64,000 bases of DNA from a virus: positions 53,830-117,829 of IMG/VR virus record IMGVR_UViG_3300021379_000006; one strand, written 5' to 3'. Position numbers and translations under genes: made by a program. A model generated the notes under the pieces. It was not told the DNA's origin. It saw nothing but the letters and a program-made list of their open reading frames with translations, and did no database searches. Shown here piece after piece: positions 3,004 to 57,335 of the stretch (positions are counted from its first letter, which is position 1; each line of letters starts with the position of its first letter).

Positions 3004-6000
3004 TTATTTTTGTGTCTTGTTATATAAAGCTTCTGCAGCTTGATTTTTTTCTAAAATCTCCTGCATCTTTATAAACTCAATATAGTCAGCAATTTGTTGT
3101 ATTCCATTTGCTTTAACAGGTTGACCAGCTAATTCTCCGTATACAGATGGATCCATTGGATATCTTATCATTTCCATTGGGCGTGTTATTTCAACGTAAT
3201 GATTTTCTGTACCTGCAGTTGGATCAAATGATCTCTCTGTTAAAGTTGTATAATATACACCATTATTTCTCCAAATTTTAAATTCTCCTGCGCCAGGAAT
3301 TTCTCTGTGGTATTTACCATCAAATTGAATTTCAGTATCTACCATAGAATAATTATAATTGCTTTGTGAGTAACCACTTATATCTTGATCTGGATTTACC
3401 ATAAGTGTAATTGTAGAAAATTTATCTTTTTCTATTTTTTCAAGAATACCATAACCAGGATCATCTGTATCACCCGTTGCTAATTTCTTTAAATAATCTT
3501 GATCAAATGTAATTACATATGCCCCATCTTTTGAAGGGGAGTCTATTGCTCCATATGCATCTATATAGCTGACACTAAATAAAGCTTTATCTTTTATACT
3601 AGAACCTTGACTACCAGCATCAAGATCCATTAACGCTTGCCCAACAACACGTCTTGCTTTATCACCATCTTTTTCAACTTTTTTGGTAACGTCTGAACTT
3701 TCAAACTCTCTAACATCACCGGGGATATATTGAACACCACCTGTGCTAACTTGATTAATTAAATCAACAAGAACATTTTCTTGTTCTGTAGTTAAACCAT
3801 TAATGTTACTAGGAACAATAACCCCTGAGTTATATGAGTTAGACATAAATGCAGAACCATCTGACATATTTTTTACAGAACCACCTCTTAGAACTTGATA
3901 TACATCAAACACTTCATATGGTCTTTCTGCTCCAGCATCTGTATCTGCTTCAGTTGTAGCATAATAGTTATAGTATCCATTTAAGGTTCTATTTAGCACG
4001 TTATATTGTTTTTCATAAGCTTTAGTAGCTTCTTCTGTAACCCAGTCTTCATCAAGGGTTTCCTCCATATTGCCGCTCCATCCATAGGTACCCATAGGTG
4101 TAACCACACGCTCCGTACCTTTTGTATAGAAATCTTCATCAAGCCGTACCCAATCTGTATATTCTCTTCTTCTTGCTTTTTCTATGGCTACATCAATAAA
4201 TTCTTCTTTAGACAAAATCTTACCATCTTGAACAATGGATGGAGCACCATAACTCATATCATAAAGAACTTCTTCTACTCCAACCGCGTCTTTAAAGTTA
4301 AGTATCTGTCCCCAGTTAGCTACTGCTTTTGTTTCTAGTAACTCTCTACCACGCTCAGTTCGCATTGCTAAACCTTGCATATCGCTCATCCTATTTTTAA
4401 ACAAAGTAGCTTGAGCGTTTGTAATATTTGGTGCTTTCTCTGTCCTAGAGTCTTGAGTTGCAAGAGCTTCATCAATTTTCTCATATTCTTTTGCAACCCA
4501 CTCTTTATATTGAGGTTTTTGTAATTCTACTCTAGCTTCATCTAAAGTAAATACTTTATCACCACCTTGAGTTGGAAGAGTTATAGTTTCAGGAGTACCA
4601 GCTTGACCTCTACTTGCCTGGTCAATTTGATAGTAATCTAATACTACACCAACTGTTTCATTATAGATTTTGTCATCTGCATCTTTGAATTCTGTTTCTG
4701 CTAATTTTAGAGCATCAAAATCAGCTTGTGGTTCGCCATCTGCATTTGCAACATACGATACATCTTGTTGACCTGTACTAAGCTTACCCAAAGCATTACC
4801 TAATCTACTTTCAGGTGATAATAAACCTGCTTTTATTCTTGCAGCTTCTAGCTCATTTGCTCTGTTTAATGCATTTTGTTCAGCTCTAAATTTTCTATCT
4901 GCTGCATCACGGATCATATCAAGCTTGTGCTTTTCTATGTCTCTTTGAAAATCATTAATTTCAATATCTCTACTAGCACTTTGCATAGAATAACTTCTAG
5001 CTGCTGCTCTTAGATCATCATTAATATTCCAGTTCATTAACATAGCATAAGCTTTGTTAATCAATGCTTCTTCATCTGGGGTAGGTTGACTAACAGATCC
5101 CAATAAAGCTCTATTAGATTCTGTTTCTAACTCCATTTCTTCAAGAGCTAATACAACTTGCTCATAAGCAGATCTTTGAGCTGGTGATAATCTATCTTCT
5201 CCAACATCAGTAATTTTTGCTTCATGCTTCTCTCTTAGTTCTTTTAACTCTTTTAATTTTCCTTGTTGAGTTAATTCTAATTCTGCTGCTTTAAAGTTAA
5301 TATCTGCTATTAAACTTTGTGCCCATTGTACTCTACCTTCATTTATTGATTGATATTTACCAGCAGCTACACCATCTTCAGCATGTCTTCTTGCTTTTAC
5401 ATATGCATCAGCAGAATAGGCTCTTTGAACATTTGCATTATTAGCCAATGCTCTTCTGACTCTTTCAAATGATGCATCATATACAAGCTCACCATTCTTT
5501 TGTTTTATAATAAACTTGTTATCTTTTGTAAAATAAAAATCCTCAACTTCTAAACCCGATTCTTCCAAATAGTTTAATGCCATATCATATAGATTGACAT
5601 TAGGTATATAAGTAGGTAGAGGTTTATTTGCAGCGTCTTCGGGAGATGCTTCTATAAAATCTTGCATTTGATAGTTTAGGTAATCAATACCTGTCTGCCA
5701 ATACTTATTACTAGCATCTGAGTTTGGAGCATTTAATAAGCTTTGAGCTCGTTGTAATTCTCCTTTATATCTTGCTGTTCTATAGATATCCTGTTGAACT
5801 AGTTTATTTTCTATAAATGGATTAAAGACACCACGTGCTTGATCTACGTTTGCACCAATAGATAAATCTAATTCAGCTATTTGATTAATACGTGGAACCA
5901 ATTGCTGAGCAAATTGATCTCTAATTTGTTGAGTATCTTGTCTTGATAAATCTGCATAGACAACACTACCATACAAATCATTTATTGCTTTATAGTTTGT

Positions 6001-6111
6001 ATCGTATCTATCCTGACGTGTAGAAAGTACCGCTTGAGCAAATTTAAAATCTGGTTCAAACGGTTCATACGTGGGGATGTAACTATCTATTCCTGGTATA
6101 TAAGTTGCCAT
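3004..6111 (-). CDS. Conserved crAss-like internal virion (cargo-type) protein, 1035 aa
   Basis: Starts MATYIPGIDSYIPTYEPFEP, followed by repeated R/Q/D-rich helical sequence (LYGSVVYADLSRQDTQQIRD at about residues 47-66). I remember this N-terminal signature from large uncharacterised virion proteins of crAss-like phages. The first ~450 residues are helical and charged; the C-terminal half has more beta-type sequence with many Asp, Gly and Tyr. No enzyme motif was found. It lies between the 931-aa and the >995-aa giant genes on the same strand with a short AT-rich spacer, which fits co-transcription. A structural or injected role is inferred from context only. Confidence 0.8.
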   Translation of the reverse strand: MATYIPGIDSYIPTYEPFEPDFKFAQAVLSTRQDRYDTNYKAINDLYGSVVYADLSRQDTQQIRDQFAQQLVPRINQIAELDLSIGANVDQARGVFNPFIENKLVQQDIYRTARYKGELQRAQSLLNAPNSDASNKYWQTGIDYLNYQMQDFIEASPEDAANKPLPTYIPNVNLYDMALNYLEESGLEVEDFYFTKDNKFIIKQKNGELVYDASFERVRRALANNANVQRAYSADAYVKARRHAEDGVAAGKYQSINEGRVQWAQSLIADINFKAAELELTQQGKLKELKELREKHEAKITDVGEDRLSPAQRSAYEQVVLALEEMELETESNRALLGSVSQPTPDEEALINKAYAMLMNWNINDDLRAAARSYSMQSASRDIEINDFQRDIEKHKLDMIRDAADRKFRAEQNALNRANELEAARIKAGLLSPESRLGNALGKLSTGQQDVSYVANADGEPQADFDALKLAETEFKDADDKIYNETVGVVLDYYQIDQASRGQAGTPETITLPTQGGDKVFTLDEARVELQKPQYKEWVAKEYEKIDEALATQDSRTEKAPNITNAQATLFKNRMSDMQGLAMRTERGRELLETKAVANWGQILNFKDAVGVEEVLYDMSYGAPSIVQDGKILSKEEFIDVAIEKARRREYTDWVRLDEDFYTKGTERVVTPMGTYGWSGNMEETLDEDWVTEEATKAYEKQYNVLNRTLNGYYNYYATTEADTDAGAERPYEVFDVYQVLRGGSVKNMSDGSAFMSNSYNSGVIVPSNINGLTTEQENVLVDLINQVSTGGVQYIPGDVREFESSDVTKKVEKDGDKARRVVGQALMDLDAGSQGSSIKDKALFSVSYIDAYGAIDSPSKDGAYVITFDQDYLKKLATGDTDDPGYGILEKIEKDKFSTITLMVNPDQDISGYSQSNYNYSMVDTEIQFDGKYHREIPGAGEFKIWRNNGVYYTTLTERSFDPTAGTENHYVEITRPMEMIRYPMDPSVYGELAGQPVKANGIQQIADYIEFIKMQEILEKNQAAEALYNKTQK

Positions 6112-6170
6112 AAATCTAAATTACTAAAATTTTCTAAGTTTTAAAAGCTTTATGCTTACACTCTTTAAGT

Positions 6171-8966
6171 TTATGAACCCATCTTTCCTGTGTAAAAAGG
6201 CACTGCAAACTTCTTAATTTCTTTTCCTTTTTTTCCTTGACCATTTGCTAAACTCATTGTCGCAAGTACTTCTGGTGTAAGACCATACATTTCTGCATAA
6301 TTCCCACTAAGCATTGGATTCTCTGCTTGAGTTGTTCCTGAAGTATAGTAATCTATCATAGCTTTGTTGACACCATCTTCACCAAACATGTTATACAAAT
6401 CTTGTAGATCTTGCATACGTTGTTGTTTAGCAACTCTAGGATCTCCTTGCTTACTTGGAATAGGTCTTCTACCATTTACAAAATCAATGGTACCACCTGT
6501 TACAGGATTAATATTAAATTGATCATAAAGACTACTTAAATTGTAAGCGCCCACTGCATTTGTAAGAGCATCTGCCTGCCAGTTCATGAAATCATTCATG
6601 TCAGCATTCTTTTCATTATCATACATTTGCAATGTAGCTTGTGTTGCATCATACAATTGATCAGTTCTTTCAGCATTTAATCTGTTAACCGCAAAGTCTA
6701 ATTGAGCCTGACGTGTTAAACCAGAATTAACTGTATTAATATTTCTACCATGAACTCTTGCAAATGCGTTAGCGGCTTGCGTCATTGCATCACCAGACAT
6801 TTTACTTAACCTAGCACTTGTGCTTTGAGGACCCGCAAAAGCACCTACTGCCTGCGCAGCTATATTATATTTCTCATTTACATCTGCAAGCTGTCTTGTA
6901 GGTTCTTCTAGTACATAATCTATTCTTGGTCTTTCAATAGGCTGTCTGAACGGCATGTACATATTTCTATCTCTAAGAGCAATTGCTGCTCCCTTATATA
7001 GATCTTGTGTGTAGAAGTCAAGATCAGGATCTCTATATGTTTGTATATCTCCTGGTTCATCACAGCATTCTAATGAATATGTACCATCGGGACAAAGACA
7101 TCCTTCTTCTTCTTTTTCTTTTTCTGGTTCTGGCTCTGCTACTTGTAAGAATTGATTCAAAGTATTATTACCGTAGAATCCATCTTTCTTAGAAATCTTC
7201 TTATTTACAGCCCAGTTAGTATTTTGATTTGGTCCAGTTGCTGTATATGATAAGTATGGCTCAGCATTATCCTTATCTGCTATAGTAACAGCTTGGAAGA
7301 ATAATTGATTTAATTGTGTTGTTTTGTCATCAATGTTATAACCACCATAAAGATCTGGATAAAGTTCTGCTGCTCTATCAAATAAAGCTTGAGTGTTTTT
7401 ATTTTTTCTATCTCCTCTACCTCTATCTAACTCTTTTGCATATCTCATGTCTTCAGGCATAAGATCTGCAATCATATAGTTATTCTTTTGGTAGTCTAGG
7501 AATGTTTGAACCATCTCAGCCTTAGATGGGATATCAGATTCAGGAATACCTTGCGCCTTTGCGTTAGCAACAAAAGCAACATAAGCTCTATCAATTGTAG
7601 TTTCCCACATAGGATCACCAGAAGTAAATAGTCTTTCTAGTTCTTGATATTGTGAATAGTTATCACCTAACCCTCTACCACCTTCAATCTCTGAAACATC
7701 TAAGGTTGTTCTACCACCTCTTCTTGAAGCAGCAGGTGCCGCAGCAGGTGCCGCAGCAGGAGAAGGTGTAGGAGAAGGTGGTGCAGAAGCTCCAGCAGCT
7801 GAACCAGAAATAGTTGTAGCAGGAATAGTTGTAGCAGGAGGAGTAGGATCAAGAGGACCGGATGCTTTAACATATGCTTGTGCATCACCACTCCAAACCC
7901 AGCCTGCATTTTCCATTGTTGTATTATACTGAGTACCAGCATGTGGATTTCCTGTTGGAATAAGACTTCCTACAGGATTACCCTCTGTATCTACCGCATG
8001 TTTTCCTATTTCTACATACTTGCCGTTTGTAAATTGATATGCTGTACCGTTTGCTGGATTAAAATAATAAACACCTTCTTGAGCATCTGCTGTAAATGGT
8101 ATACCATATCTACCATTAGACATTTTTTGATATTCAATACCATTTTGGGCTCTTGGTAATTCCATACCATAAGCAGCCATAGGTTGTGACATTTGACCAG
8201 CTTGTTCCATTATCTGTCTTAATGCCATTACCTGAGCTTGTTGCTCTGGAGATAATCCTTCAAACATTCTTTGTGCAGCTTGCTCTCTTGTGATATTCTC
8301 TACTTTCTGAGTAAACTCAATAGGATTAATACCTTGAGAAATCAAATAAGGATGAGCAGTTGCTGGAACACCATCTGAAAATTGTTTCTTTGCTTCTTGT
8401 CCAAATGCTAATTTTGATAAACTCATTTGATTTTTATCTATCATTAATTCAGCACTTTTGGTTGTAATGTTATCTGCAAAAGGATCTGCCATTGCTCCTA
8501 TGTATTCATTGAGCTGGTATTTTTTAGAAACCTTAGCTGGAGTCATTTTCTTTCTTGATTCAATACCAAACTCTGCAAGCTCTTGTCTATTAAACTTCAT
8601 TTTAGCTGTATCAGAAAATACAAATGATTGCTCTGGCAAATACATTGGTACGCCACCACTACTGTGTCTAGGACCTTTAATGTCATACAAACCAAATCTA
8701 CCATCATTATTAAGATCTGTCAATACAGTCTCACCACCTTCTGCTTCTATATTAGCAACTTCTCTAGGTACGGATGATAAAGAGTATCTAACATCTACGT
8801 CATTGGTATTGTTAAATTGGTCATTACCAAAATTATAAGGAGATGTAACAAGACCATAACCAGATTGATCTCCGGTCATCATACCGCCATGTTTCATCTT
8901 TTTTGTAACCTTACCGTTTTTAATTTCAAAACCATCAGGTAATTTTTTTAATCTAATCTTTGCCAT
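6171..8966 (-). CDS. Modular giant virion protein with LPxAQ-type motif, 931 aa
   Basis: The N-terminus has a basic start and a Gly-rich HGGMMTGDQSG segment, then a block around residues 70-125 (AEGGETVLTDLNNDGRFGLY, RHSSGGVPMYLPEQSFVFSD) that I recognise from crAss-like cargo proteins. A motif YGMELPRAQNG lies near residue 269. After it come a beta-like module and a low-complexity Pro/Ala/Thr linker at about residues 370-425, encoded by short GCAGCAGGTGCC-type repeats. The C-terminal part is helical and Asn/Gln-rich. A Cys cluster (CLCPDG, ECC) sits near residue 625. The start is 2 nt from the stop of the 1204-aa gene, so the two are one operon. The function is unknown; packaged virion protein is the likely role. 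Confidence 0.78.
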   Translation of the reverse strand: MAKIRLKKLPDGFEIKNGKVTKKMKHGGMMTGDQSGYGLVTSPYNFGNDQFNNTNDVDVRYSLSSVPREVANIEAEGGETVLTDLNNDGRFGLYDIKGPRHSSGGVPMYLPEQSFVFSDTAKMKFNRQELAEFGIESRKKMTPAKVSKKYQLNEYIGAMADPFADNITTKSAELMIDKNQMSLSKLAFGQEAKKQFSDGVPATAHPYLISQGINPIEFTQKVENITREQAAQRMFEGLSPEQQAQVMALRQIMEQAGQMSQPMAAYGMELPRAQNGIEYQKMSNGRYGIPFTADAQEGVYYFNPANGTAYQFTNGKYVEIGKHAVDTEGNPVGSLIPTGNPHAGTQYNTTMENAGWVWSGDAQAYVKASGPLDPTPPATTIPATTISGSAAGASAPPSPTPSPAAAPAAAPAASRRGGRTTLDVSEIEGGRGLGDNYSQYQELERLFTSGDPMWETTIDRAYVAFVANAKAQGIPESDIPSKAEMVQTFLDYQKNNYMIADLMPEDMRYAKELDRGRGDRKNKNTQALFDRAAELYPDLYGGYNIDDKTTQLNQLFFQAVTIADKDNAEPYLSYTATGPNQNTNWAVNKKISKKDGFYGNNTLNQFLQVAEPEPEKEKEEEGCLCPDGTYSLECCDEPGDIQTYRDPDLDFYTQDLYKGAAIALRDRNMYMPFRQPIERPRIDYVLEEPTRQLADVNEKYNIAAQAVGAFAGPQSTSARLSKMSGDAMTQAANAFARVHGRNINTVNSGLTRQAQLDFAVNRLNAERTDQLYDATQATLQMYDNEKNADMNDFMNWQADALTNAVGAYNLSSLYDQFNINPVTGGTIDFVNGRRPIPSKQGDPRVAKQQRMQDLQDLYNMFGEDGVNKAMIDYYTSGTTQAENPMLSGNYAEMYGLTPEVLATMSLANGQGKKGKEIKKFAVPFYTGKMGS

Positions 8967-55692: not shown

Positions 55693-56037
55693 ATGACTGA
55701 AAATTCAGTTTTTTTCCGCAAGCTGCTTATCAATGAGAACACAAAGAATGTGACTCTCTATGTGACAAGCAAACCACTTTCAACGCAAGAAGTAGACTTC
55801 ATGGGTATGAAAGTGCAAGTTCGTGTCCAAGATACTATTGTATCTGGCCAACTCAACATGGTAGACCCTTCAACTGGGACCAGTATGAAGAGTGACCATG
55901 CAATTGTAAAGAAGCTCAAGACCCTCAAGCCGGGCACAGAGCTTAAAGGCTTTACAATCAACACAGATGCACCAGTGCGTGACCTGGAAACAGGCGAGCC
56001 ACTGCGCAATCTGTACTGGGTTGAGGCTGCACAATAG
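55693..56037 (+). CDS. First rightward (early) gene, hypothetical, 114 aa
   Basis: Begins MTENSVFFRKLLINENTKNV and continues as a beta-rich chain (LYVTSKPLSTQEVDFMGMKV, QVRVQDTIVSGQLNMVDPST) ending in VRDLETGEPLRNLYWVEAAQ. I do not recognise a family; the beta pattern could suit a small binding domain. Base composition is unusual: codons such as CTC AAG CCG GGC and GAG GCT GCA are much more G/C-ended than in neighbouring genes. As the first gene after the divergent region it is probably made early and strongly. The 3' flank holds a three-way-junction-like RNA element. Confidence 0.72.
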   Translation: MTENSVFFRKLLINENTKNVTLYVTSKPLSTQEVDFMGMKVQVRVQDTIVSGQLNMVDPSTGTSMKSDHAIVKKLKTLKPGTELKGFTINTDAPVRDLETGEPLRNLYWVEAAQ

Positions 56038-56050
56038 TGCAGTTCTCACC

Positions 56051-56115
56051 CAATTAGTGGATGAGCATTGTTACGTCCACTACAAGGATTCAAACTTGTT
56101 ACTGATTCCTAATTG
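56051..56115 (+). other. Three-way-junction-like RNA element after first early gene
   Basis: CAATTA (56051-56056) pairs with TAATTG (56110-56115). Inside, GTGGA/TCCAC (56057-56061 with 56076-56080) and ACAAG/CTTGT (56082-56086 with 56095-56099) form two hairpins. A T-rich tail (ATTGTAATTTTTTATTTATT) follows. It begins 14 nt after the stop codon and may be a terminator or a processed 3' end. The rest of the gap up to 56232 is leader sequence without a visible gene. Confidence 0.5.
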
Positions 56116-56232
56116 ATTGTAATTTTTTATTTATTTGTGTGTTGCATTGTGTGTGAGTGGTCTAAATCACCACATATACCCACTTTGTAACACTCAGATA
56201 CTTTCTACTCACCTAAATATATAAATATAGCT

Positions 56233-56433
56233 ATGAATAATAATAGCCCTAAGGTTTACACACCTATAGATGAACTCACTGATTATGTTAACTCTATACA
56301 TGAGTTATATAAGAATCTATCTCCTTATGCTCATAACCTACATAGAGCATGTGGTGGTAATCAGTCTTTGTTATTATATATTAATTCCTTTAAGCAGGTA
56401 GTATATAATAACCCGGATAAAGAGAAGTTGTAA
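56233..56433 (+). CDS. Small hypothetical protein, 66 aa
   Basis: MNNNSPKVYTPIDELTDYVN, then a helical segment SIHELYKNLSPYAHNLHRAC and a Lys-rich end. A leader with TCACCTAA lies 17 nt before the ATG, a motif also found before the genes at 56972 and 60975. No family is recognised. Its stop codon is followed directly by the large structured region, so message and RNA could be one transcript. Confidence 0.6.
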   Translation: MNNNSPKVYTPIDELTDYVNSIHELYKNLSPYAHNLHRACGGNQSLLLYINSFKQVVYNNPDKEKL

Positions 56434-56950
56434 TAGTATATCTGATGCGGAAATACGAAAGTATACCAGTCGTTGTACCAGTGAACTCCTAATTTGCAAT
56501 AAGGATAGTAGACGGGCGTGGTGAAGATATATTATTATGCACCTAAGCATGTGTCTAAACTGCTTTATCATAATGCTCTCATCCAATTGTAGGAATGGAA
56601 GGTGACTGCTTCCTAAGCAATGAGTTAATTCTGAGTGGAACAAGATACATATAGTGTATTCTTAGTAGTGTGTTTCAGGAATTGCTAATAAGTTCAAGGG
56701 TTACAACCTTGTGGGAGTATTTATTTATTAACCCGTTTCCTGGAATCAAACACTGTTATTATGATGTGAGCCTTAATCCAGGGCACAAGGTAGGTACCTA
56801 CTGTGTAAGGCAATTAATAATATGTGGAGTGAAAGAAGTCAAACACTTCCATAACAAAAAATACAGACCATGTGGCTGGGATAGAGAACACGTTAAATAA
56901 CTATCCAACATTAAAATATACCTGAGCATGTATTCAAACTGCTCTTTTTT
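56434..56950 (+). ncRNA. Large multi-helix structured RNA ending in an intrinsic terminator (candidate novel phage RNA)
   Basis: This gap of over 500 nt holds no convincing gene but many helices. ATAC/GTAT with GAAA loop, 56453-56464. ATTATG/CATAAT (56534-56539, 56569-56574) enclosing AAGCA/TGCTT. GGAAG/CTTCC, 56597-56613. GTGTTTCAGGAA (56670-56681) with TTCCTG and AAACAC (56737-56753), enclosing CAAGG/CCTTG. GCCTTA/TAAGGC (56770-56775, 56806-56811) with an inner GTAG/CTAC and CACA/TGTG. TGGAGTG/CACTTCCA, 56825-56851. GGATAG/CTATCC, 56879-56906. The last is a terminator: GAGCA/TGCTC (56924-56944) plus six T. The hairpin at 56543-56565 recurs at 56922-56944 with a compensatory A-T to G-C pair. 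The 5' end is unknown. Confidence 0.65.
56922..56950 (+). terminator. Intrinsic terminator ending the structured region
   Basis: GAGCA/TGCTC stem with an 11-nt loop (TGTATTCAAAC) and a run of six T at 56945-56950. The hairpin is a variant copy of the one at 56543-56565. Confidence 0.7.
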
Positions 56951-56971
56951 ATTCACCTAAACTTATAACAA

Positions 56972-57145
56972 ATGATTAATAGAATACTTATATGGGTGCT
57001 TACAATATTCGTATCCGTAAACATATTAAGAGCAGCTCATCATGCGTTAAACAATGATGATTGGCAAGTGGCTGTTCTATTCGTAATACTTGCCTACTTT
57101 ACTACATACATTCCTTTAATACTTAGAAAACATGAAGACAACTAA
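56972..57145 (+). CDS. Tiny membrane protein, 57 aa
   Basis: Reads MINRILIWVLTIFVSVNILR, then a short polar segment AAHHALNNDDWQ and a second hydrophobic stretch VAVLFVILAYFTTYIPLIL before a charged end. Two transmembrane helices are likely. The leader carries TCACCTAA 12 nt before the ATG. It overlaps the next small gene by 14 nt. No family is recognised; a small inner-membrane protein of early infection (for example exclusion or host modulation) is possible. Confidence 0.66.
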   Translation: MINRILIWVLTIFVSVNILRAAHHALNNDDWQVAVLFVILAYFTTYIPLILRKHEDN

Positions 57146-57335
57146 ACTCATGCTTATAGGGATTGCAACCTTTATTGCTACATGGTTAGCATTATCAACC
57201 TTGATATGGTTATGTGCAGAATTTGTTACTTTTAGATACATTGCAACAAATCCTATAGTTCTTATTATAATGACAGTGGTTGGCTGGTTACCAGCAGCTG
57301 TAGTTGTGAATGATTATAATGAGCTTTATGAGTAG
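57132..57335 (+). CDS. Tiny membrane protein, 67 aa
   Basis: The ATG lies inside the end of the preceding gene. MKTTKLMLIGIATFIATWLA, LSTLIWLCAEFV, then IVLIIMTVVGWLPAAVVVND give two hydrophobic helices, with the end polar (YNELYE). It overlaps the following small gene by 8 nt. Compact overlaps on both sides support real translation. Function unknown. Confidence 0.64.
   Translation: MKTTKLMLIGIATFIATWLALSTLIWLCAEFVTFRYIATNPIVLIIMTVVGWLPAAVVVNDYNELYE

Follow-up and report, generated by a model that had tools for sequence, protein, structure and literature searches.

A compact pseudoknot at gene borders of many bacterial viruses, adjoining a tRNA-elbow-like RNA in a probable crAss-like phage: a candidate 3'-end cap

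Judged from sequence comparison, a compact pseudoknot (PK) of 28 nt occupies intergenic sites in hundreds of unrelated phages, and we see about an even chance that it acts as a 3'-end cap or roadblock, which would protect the upstream transcript once RNase P or an endonuclease has cut or transcription has terminated. Two copies lie within 56434-56950 of the window, i.e., the whole 64,000-nt stretch analyzed here, which covers positions 53830-117829 of the 117.8-kb virus record IMGVR_UViG_3300021379_000006. This region is located close to the start of the window's rightward small-gene cluster, while genes of the leftward cluster match portal, terminase and major head protein families; together with two very large genes (2,057 and 1,698 aa), these matches fit a crAss-like phage, which the source probably is. 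In agreement with the earlier note on this DNA, the region appears to encode conserved, structured, non-coding phage RNA, with no convincing gene between 56434 and 56950. Its organization reads as a mosaic of a first PK copy, an RNA termed here motif 2, a block at 56723-56813, a lineage-specific spacer and a second PK copy with a U-run (Table 1).

Table 1 Features of the mosaic at 56434-56950 of the window
Feature	Position	Strand	Evidence
PK copy 1, H-type pseudoknot	56539-56566	+	R1 42.4 bits, E 9e-10; R2 35.5 bits; covariation in relatives
PK copy 1, helices	S1 56539-56542/56551-56554 (outermost pair G-U); S2 56545-56549/56561-56565	+	
PK copy 1, unpaired	C 56543; junction U 56550; loop AAAC 56557-56560	+	
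Motif-2 RNA, tRNA-elbow-like frame with variable core	56574-56719	+	String matches, covariation, fold
Motif-2 closing stem	56575-56581/56712-56718, outer pair 56574-56719	+	
Motif-2 T-arm-like hairpin	56695-56699/56707-56711	+	
Motif-2 loop-loop helix	UUGUA 56587-56591/UACAA 56702-56706	+	
Conserved block (~95%), nearest relatives L002-L004 only	56723-56813	+	Alignment
Lineage-specific spacer, absent from L002-L004	56814-56913	+	Alignment
PK copy 2, H-type pseudoknot	56918-56945	+	R1 44.5 bits, E 2.4e-10; R2 37 bits
PK copy 2, helices	S1 56918-56921/56930-56933; S2 56924-56928/56940-56944	+	
U-run immediately 3' of PK copy 2, possible terminator	56945-56950	+	Sequence

The earlier note had taken the whole of 56434-56950 for one large ornate RNA of about 515 nt, a reading that draws on the unbroken stretch without a good gene, its many possible helices and its terminator-like end, but that we now regard as extremely unlikely. 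The minimum free energy of 56434-56955 (-128.6 kcal/mol) is barely better than that of shuffled sequences (-119.6 ± 6.1 kcal/mol; z -1.47, with 10 of 100 shuffles as good), and the opposite strand folds nearly as well (z -1.14). In the close relatives L002-L004, which are 98% identical in a neighboring protein, only 56034-56416, 56723-56813 and about 56914-56961 can be aligned at length, the remainder being replaced. There, a 72-aa ORF separates the motif-2 RNA from the 56723 block; in L002, the motif-2 RNA begins at 5807, the 72-codon ORF occupies 5956-6174 and the block follows near 6349. Both the 12-bp bulged helix (56670-56681/56737-56753) and the arm at 56798-56811 singled out in the note are present in the letters, but the helix is not conserved in relatives, L002 missing the 5' partner strand for 56737-56753. 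As the alignment is partial, an ORF intervenes and the bulged helix is not conserved, a single 515-nt RNA is not supported, and the fold z-score, the partial alignment in L002-L004 and the intervening ORF together led us to reject it; homologues of the modules are moreover found apart from one another. Regarded as an RNA of its own, the 56723-56813 block is not unusually stable (z +0.56), and its candidacy as a widespread motif was dropped after its two extra string matches turned out to be unrelated GC-rich contigs. A search with the flanking 57-aa protein as a handle on relatives gave no matches.

Two further observations concern the surroundings of the mosaic. A TATTCACCTAAA / TACTCACCTAAA box recurs shortly 5' of start codons in this phage (56945-56971 and 56205-56232) and is perhaps a promoter or ribosome-binding motif. 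In more distant relatives, a conserved non-coding stretch of ~150 nt (L010:6173-6322 and L005:6738-6886), which ends in a hairpin and a T-run 5' of a small membrane-protein gene, is possibly another RNA.

The key evidence in the earlier note, a duplicated hairpin with a compensatory A-T to G-C change in its stem, proved correct: the copies are present at 56542-56565 and 56921-56944, and the hairpin pattern, allowing up to three mismatches, matches exactly twice in the 64 kb (0.00 expected from shuffles). Each copy additionally contains a second helix that had been overlooked (S1 in Table 1) and that likewise differs between the two copies by compensation; since this helix is interleaved with the first, the repeat is an H-type pseudoknot. 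Its consensus, NNAC C URAGCA U/A GUNN nn AAAC UGCUYA, comprises S1 (NNAC/GUNN, 4 bp), S2 (URAGCA/UGCUYA, 5-6 bp), a 1-nt junction U/A and a third loop nnAAAC, the unpaired C of loop 1 and the AAA(C) of loop 3 being near-invariant.

Both interleaved helices covary across phage copies. In an alignment of 92 copies, for which resemblance to the consensus, not pairing, was the selection criterion, double changes occur at 8 of the 10 pairs, with a covariation score of 0.469 compared with 0.167 for shuffled and at most 0.130 for slid alignments, although related sequences occur among the copies, whose covariation counts are hence not independent events. Pair -2/+11, located outside the query string, was formed in 133 of the 134 copies of a first set (59 expected), all 134 of which have A before the viral query string, a few of them stemming from the cellular scan, where this A was specified. 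A replicate, independent set gave 126 of 126 for both the preceding A and the pair (again 59 expected for the pair). Pair -1/+10, left free in a local scan of 353 copies, was A-U in 283, U-A in 64, C-G in six and mismatched in none, and the divergent S2 stems GGACA/TGTCC, GGGTA/TACCC and GAACA/TGTTC point to repeated exchange.

The exact string CCTRAGCATGTNNNNAAACTGCTY has at least 120 matches in IMG/VR, where about one is expected by chance according to our own estimate from base counting, and a second exact string with junction A likewise has at least 120. Lengthened by one base on each side, CCTRAGCATGTNNNNAAACTGCTY matches only 13 times in 85,000 cellular genomes (257 Gb), several of these being prophages with the PK 5' of scaffold-like genes. 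The phages concerned infect Bacteroidota, Proteobacteria, Firmicutes, Actinobacteria and Cyanobacteria. In the cobaviruses SIO1, P12053L, ICBM2 and ICBM3 and the roseophages CRP-6 and CRP-13, the PK lies between the class II ribonucleotide reductase and a glutaredoxin-like gene (in SIO1, the ORF beside it is present though unannotated). The Crassvirales phages cr7_1, cr124_1 and cr8_1 carry it as well, upstream of the DNA primase in the first two and directly 5' of tRNA-Val in cr124_1. It precedes the scaffold or an equivalent gene in Staphylococcus phages 80, B236 and many relatives, in Lactobacillus phig1e, KC5a and phiEF-1.1 and in Anoxybacillus A403. It is also found in Arthrobacter phage Amigo (between SSB and tRNA-Gly), in Acaryochloris phage A-HIS1, as a weaker match in Rhizobium phage RHph_TM40 and as a PK-like copy near a tRNA in E. 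coli phage phiEcoM-GJ1 (32.8 bits). Model R2 recovers the PK in all annotated phages named. Strong copies usually number one to a few per phage genome, which rules out a punctuation mark at every gene boundary. RNase J was also considered as setting the host range and discarded, because its family model matches 13 of 14 control genomes and thus does not separate the hosts, and because phiEcoM-GJ1 has a PK-like copy, too.

Some existing annotations overlap the PK. In Staphylococcus phage B236 (L235:1990-2028), the copy ahead of the scaffold gene is labeled a BPROM-predicted promoter, a label that recurs in phages B166, phiJB and B122 and is probably a misannotation, and in phiEcoM-GJ1 (L245:681-923) an annotated hypothetical protein, a doubtful gene call, overlaps the PK and an apparently decayed tRNA sequence. 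Moreover, a small conserved hairpin, AAAGGACGTGATATTCGTCGTAT with variants, occurs directly 5' of the PK and 3' of the motif-2 RNA in crAss-like contigs (L102, L111, L149, L167, L170, L206, L386, L430, L443, L445, L446 and L457).

The PK lies in sense orientation, often 5-9 nt after a stop codon as measured to S1 (peak at 5-6 nt, few below 5 nt, replicated in an independent set), and the next start codon mostly follows 15-25 nt 3' of it; to some extent, this spacing may result from two ribosome footprints being packed side by side. Recoding pseudoknots keep a distance comparable to these 5-9 nt, and extensions in frame tend to run a little longer, with a median of 12.5 codons compared with 6.5 and 4, both of which would suit a ribosome roadblock at the stop codon, be it for recoding or as a barrier to read-through or post-termination scanning. 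However, the spacing has no fixed frame, the stop codons vary, the PK itself holds an in-frame stop in a third of the frames and copies also follow non-coding stretches, and we consider such a role improbable; a stop-codon read-through element in particular was ruled out, as the frame is not fixed.

Further placements concern what follows the PK. In 26 of the 418 copies, against an expectation of 0.28, a tRNA begins no more than 12 nt 3' of the PK, most of these cases being tRNA-Asp from apparently one phage lineage; the gap to the tRNA is mostly 4-8 nt, with a stop codon generally 5-10 nt upstream of the PK, whereas a tRNA lies closely upstream at only three sites among the 418 copies, two of them within one tRNA array. 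Amigo (L246:1500-1532) is an independent actinobacteriophage instance of the tRNA placement, in which a stop codon is followed by 8 nt, a PK with a longer third loop, a few nucleotides and tRNA-Gly. In four loci including the window, the PK lies 2-9 nt 5' of a motif-2 RNA. A U-run stands directly 3' of the PK in 14% of copies against about 2.5%, TTTT being ~5 times as frequent as elsewhere (353 copies). This enrichment, to which the window contributes, would be expected if the PK were part of an unusual intrinsic transcription terminator, a role that is nonetheless very unlikely, since the majority of copies lack a U-run and are situated within operons, upstream of essential genes; a stem with a direct U-run is present in copy 2, where the stem is short, and in a minority of copies. 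As for the terminator with which the region had been said to end, the U-run after 56944 is real and the hairpin part of copy 2 alone folds well (z -3.3), while termination itself is only possible.

The genes with which the PK is associated differ between phage groups. In marine phages, the gene upstream stays constant (ribonucleotide reductase or proteins ending in KPKTIKIK) and the downstream gene varies, whereas in Gram-positive phages it is the downstream scaffold gene that accompanies the PK and the upstream gene that varies. The persistence before scaffold and capsid genes in Staphylococcus, Lactobacillus and Anoxybacillus phages, despite differing upstream genes, is what a 5' element would predict, i.e., one that stabilizes the processed downstream mRNA or insulates it, for instance from RNase J or the 5'-sensing RNase E, and boosts the expression of genes such as scaffold and capsid. 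The marine phages show the opposite association, U-runs often follow the PK, and RNase P would remove the PK from a tRNA that begins 3-8 nt downstream, which makes a 5' function rather unlikely overall.

The motif-2 RNA is present in more than 100 phage contigs; its 5' arm has 77 IMG/VR stretches, a few of which are chance matches, and its 3' arm at least 120 matches. Its consensus is [N]ACUCUCAUCCAAUUGYAGG, core, CAAGG(RU)URCAACCUUGUGAGAGU[N'], in which the core is hypervariable (roughly 20-130 nt); the modules measure about 80-190 nt. The outer pair, outside the query, is formed in 55 of 60 copies (28 expected), and the loop-loop helix covaries, UUGYA of the 5' loop with URCAA of the hairpin loop, the matching change being present in six of the seven UUGUA copies; the fold scores z -2.0 in the window and -3.6 in L002. 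Long contigs hold one to four copies and mostly one per genome, which rules out a large multi-copy array. As the 3' strand of the hairpin runs straight into the closing stem, the architecture is suggestive of a tRNA: it would share with tRNA and the tRNA-like domain of tmRNA a 7-bp acceptor-like stem contiguous with a T-arm-like hairpin of 5 bp and 7 nt and a loop-loop contact at the position of the D loop-T loop contact, with an insert replacing the anticodon arm. Unlike in tRNA, the T-loop is GUUGCAA instead of UUCRANY, the loops form a 5-bp helix and CCA is not conserved, and neither ARAGORN nor the RF00005 covariance model calls motif 2 a canonical tRNA. Some cores recur in differing genomic contexts (L163, L202, L209 and L214, among loci L148-L220), as if exchanged like cassettes.

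From the observed structure, orientation, distribution and placement of the PK we infer processing and protection. It follows stop codons and precedes RNase P sites, U-runs and possibly excised RNAs, and because all these sites are RNA 3' ends or would become such after processing, a 3' cap or roadblock is favored. The compact fold would form a mechanical roadblock, which an RNase P cut at a downstream tRNA, leader cleavage or U-run termination would place at the 3' end of the upstream RNA; with a tail of only a few nucleotides past the PK, 3'-5' exonucleases could hardly enter the coding sequence. In the window, copy 1 would cap the upstream RNA before excision of the motif-2 RNA. Copy 2, together with its U-run, would both generate the 3' end of the non-coding block ahead of the next gene and serve as its cap. 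3'-5' exonucleases occur in every host concerned, which fits the host range of the PK. A precedent exists in pegRNAs, where pseudoknots engineered at the 3' end restrict degradation by 3' exonucleases (PMC11946880). In E. coli, exonucleases already attack a stem-loop that carries a five-A tail (PMC3997798), which makes the PK tails of 4-8 nt borderline. Two observations speak against a cap, namely the association of the PK with the downstream scaffold gene in Gram-positive phages and the terminator-like hairpin that lies upstream of it in phiEF-1.1.

The strong sequence conservation of loops and S2 might alternatively indicate a protein or ligand site that regulates translation or transcription, similar to the T4 gene 32 pseudoknot or a riboswitch. 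We consider this unlikely, as the neighbors (reductase, glutaredoxin, scaffold, nuclease, tRNAs and non-coding RNAs) have no common pathway, the hosts extend across phyla, no expression platform is evident and the conserved loop bases may simply support a triplex fold.

Returning to the 3' cap, a broader proposal can be offered tentatively: in DNA phages of many phyla, the PK would natively cap mRNA 3' ends, chiefly those made by RNase P at downstream tRNAs, and together with tRNA-elbow RNAs with hypervariable cores, which in crAss-like phages would be cut out beside it, would form a shared RNA punctuation system. The presence of the PK in unrelated phages, including well-studied Staphylococcus phages, and its absence from Rfam point to a general, overlooked step of phage gene expression. 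If the cap function holds true, it would help to explain the differential stability of parts of long polycistronic phage transcripts, and the PK would represent a natural stabilizing tag of 28 nt.

The covariance models of Rfam 15 gave no family for the PK (window copy 1, E up to 10, and four other loci) or for motif 2, where the output was confined to tRNAs lying elsewhere and to matches below threshold at different positions, and no family scored in the region 56434-56950, in line with the earlier note, which claimed no family match; neither element was found described in open-licence literature, including by sequence-string search. A pseudoknot positioned at gene borders across phages appears new. 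The frameshift and read-through pseudoknots of viruses such as BWYV and MuLV are compact H-type folds with a very short loop 1 and an A-rich loop 3, located a few nucleotides downstream of the decoding site. The PK shares these features of fold and spacing but has no slippery site and no fixed frame, and it follows ordinary stop codons and precedes tRNAs. GOLLD and ROOL, with which size and setting of the region had been compared, are structured non-coding RNAs that phages and prophages carry, in many cases close to tRNA islands (PMC12286853). The region likewise holds structured, apparently non-coding phage RNA, but their Rfam models gave no match in the window at gathering score and none over 55900-57200 with the threshold relaxed to E = 1, and whereas GOLLD and ROOL are multimeric RNAs of hundreds of nucleotides, each conserved continuously as a unit, the window holds modules of 28 and about 80-190 nt that are separate in relatives. 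A phage mRNA pseudoknot is already known from gene 32 of T4 and T2, which a 2010 review called perhaps the only viral pseudoknot in translational autoregulation (PMC3014915). It is likewise of the H-type and lies in an untranslated part of a phage mRNA, but serves one gene and one protein (gp32), whereas the PK occurs at many genes, before tRNAs and across many phyla, and its varied neighboring genes speak against a role of this type. The pseudoknot as an engineered 3' protector is known as well: the pegRNA caps tevopreQ1 and mpknot are, like the PK, small 3'-end pseudoknots proposed to stop 3' exonucleases (PMC11946880), but they are a man-made use of unrelated sequence, whereas the PK is a natural element with a putative cap function.
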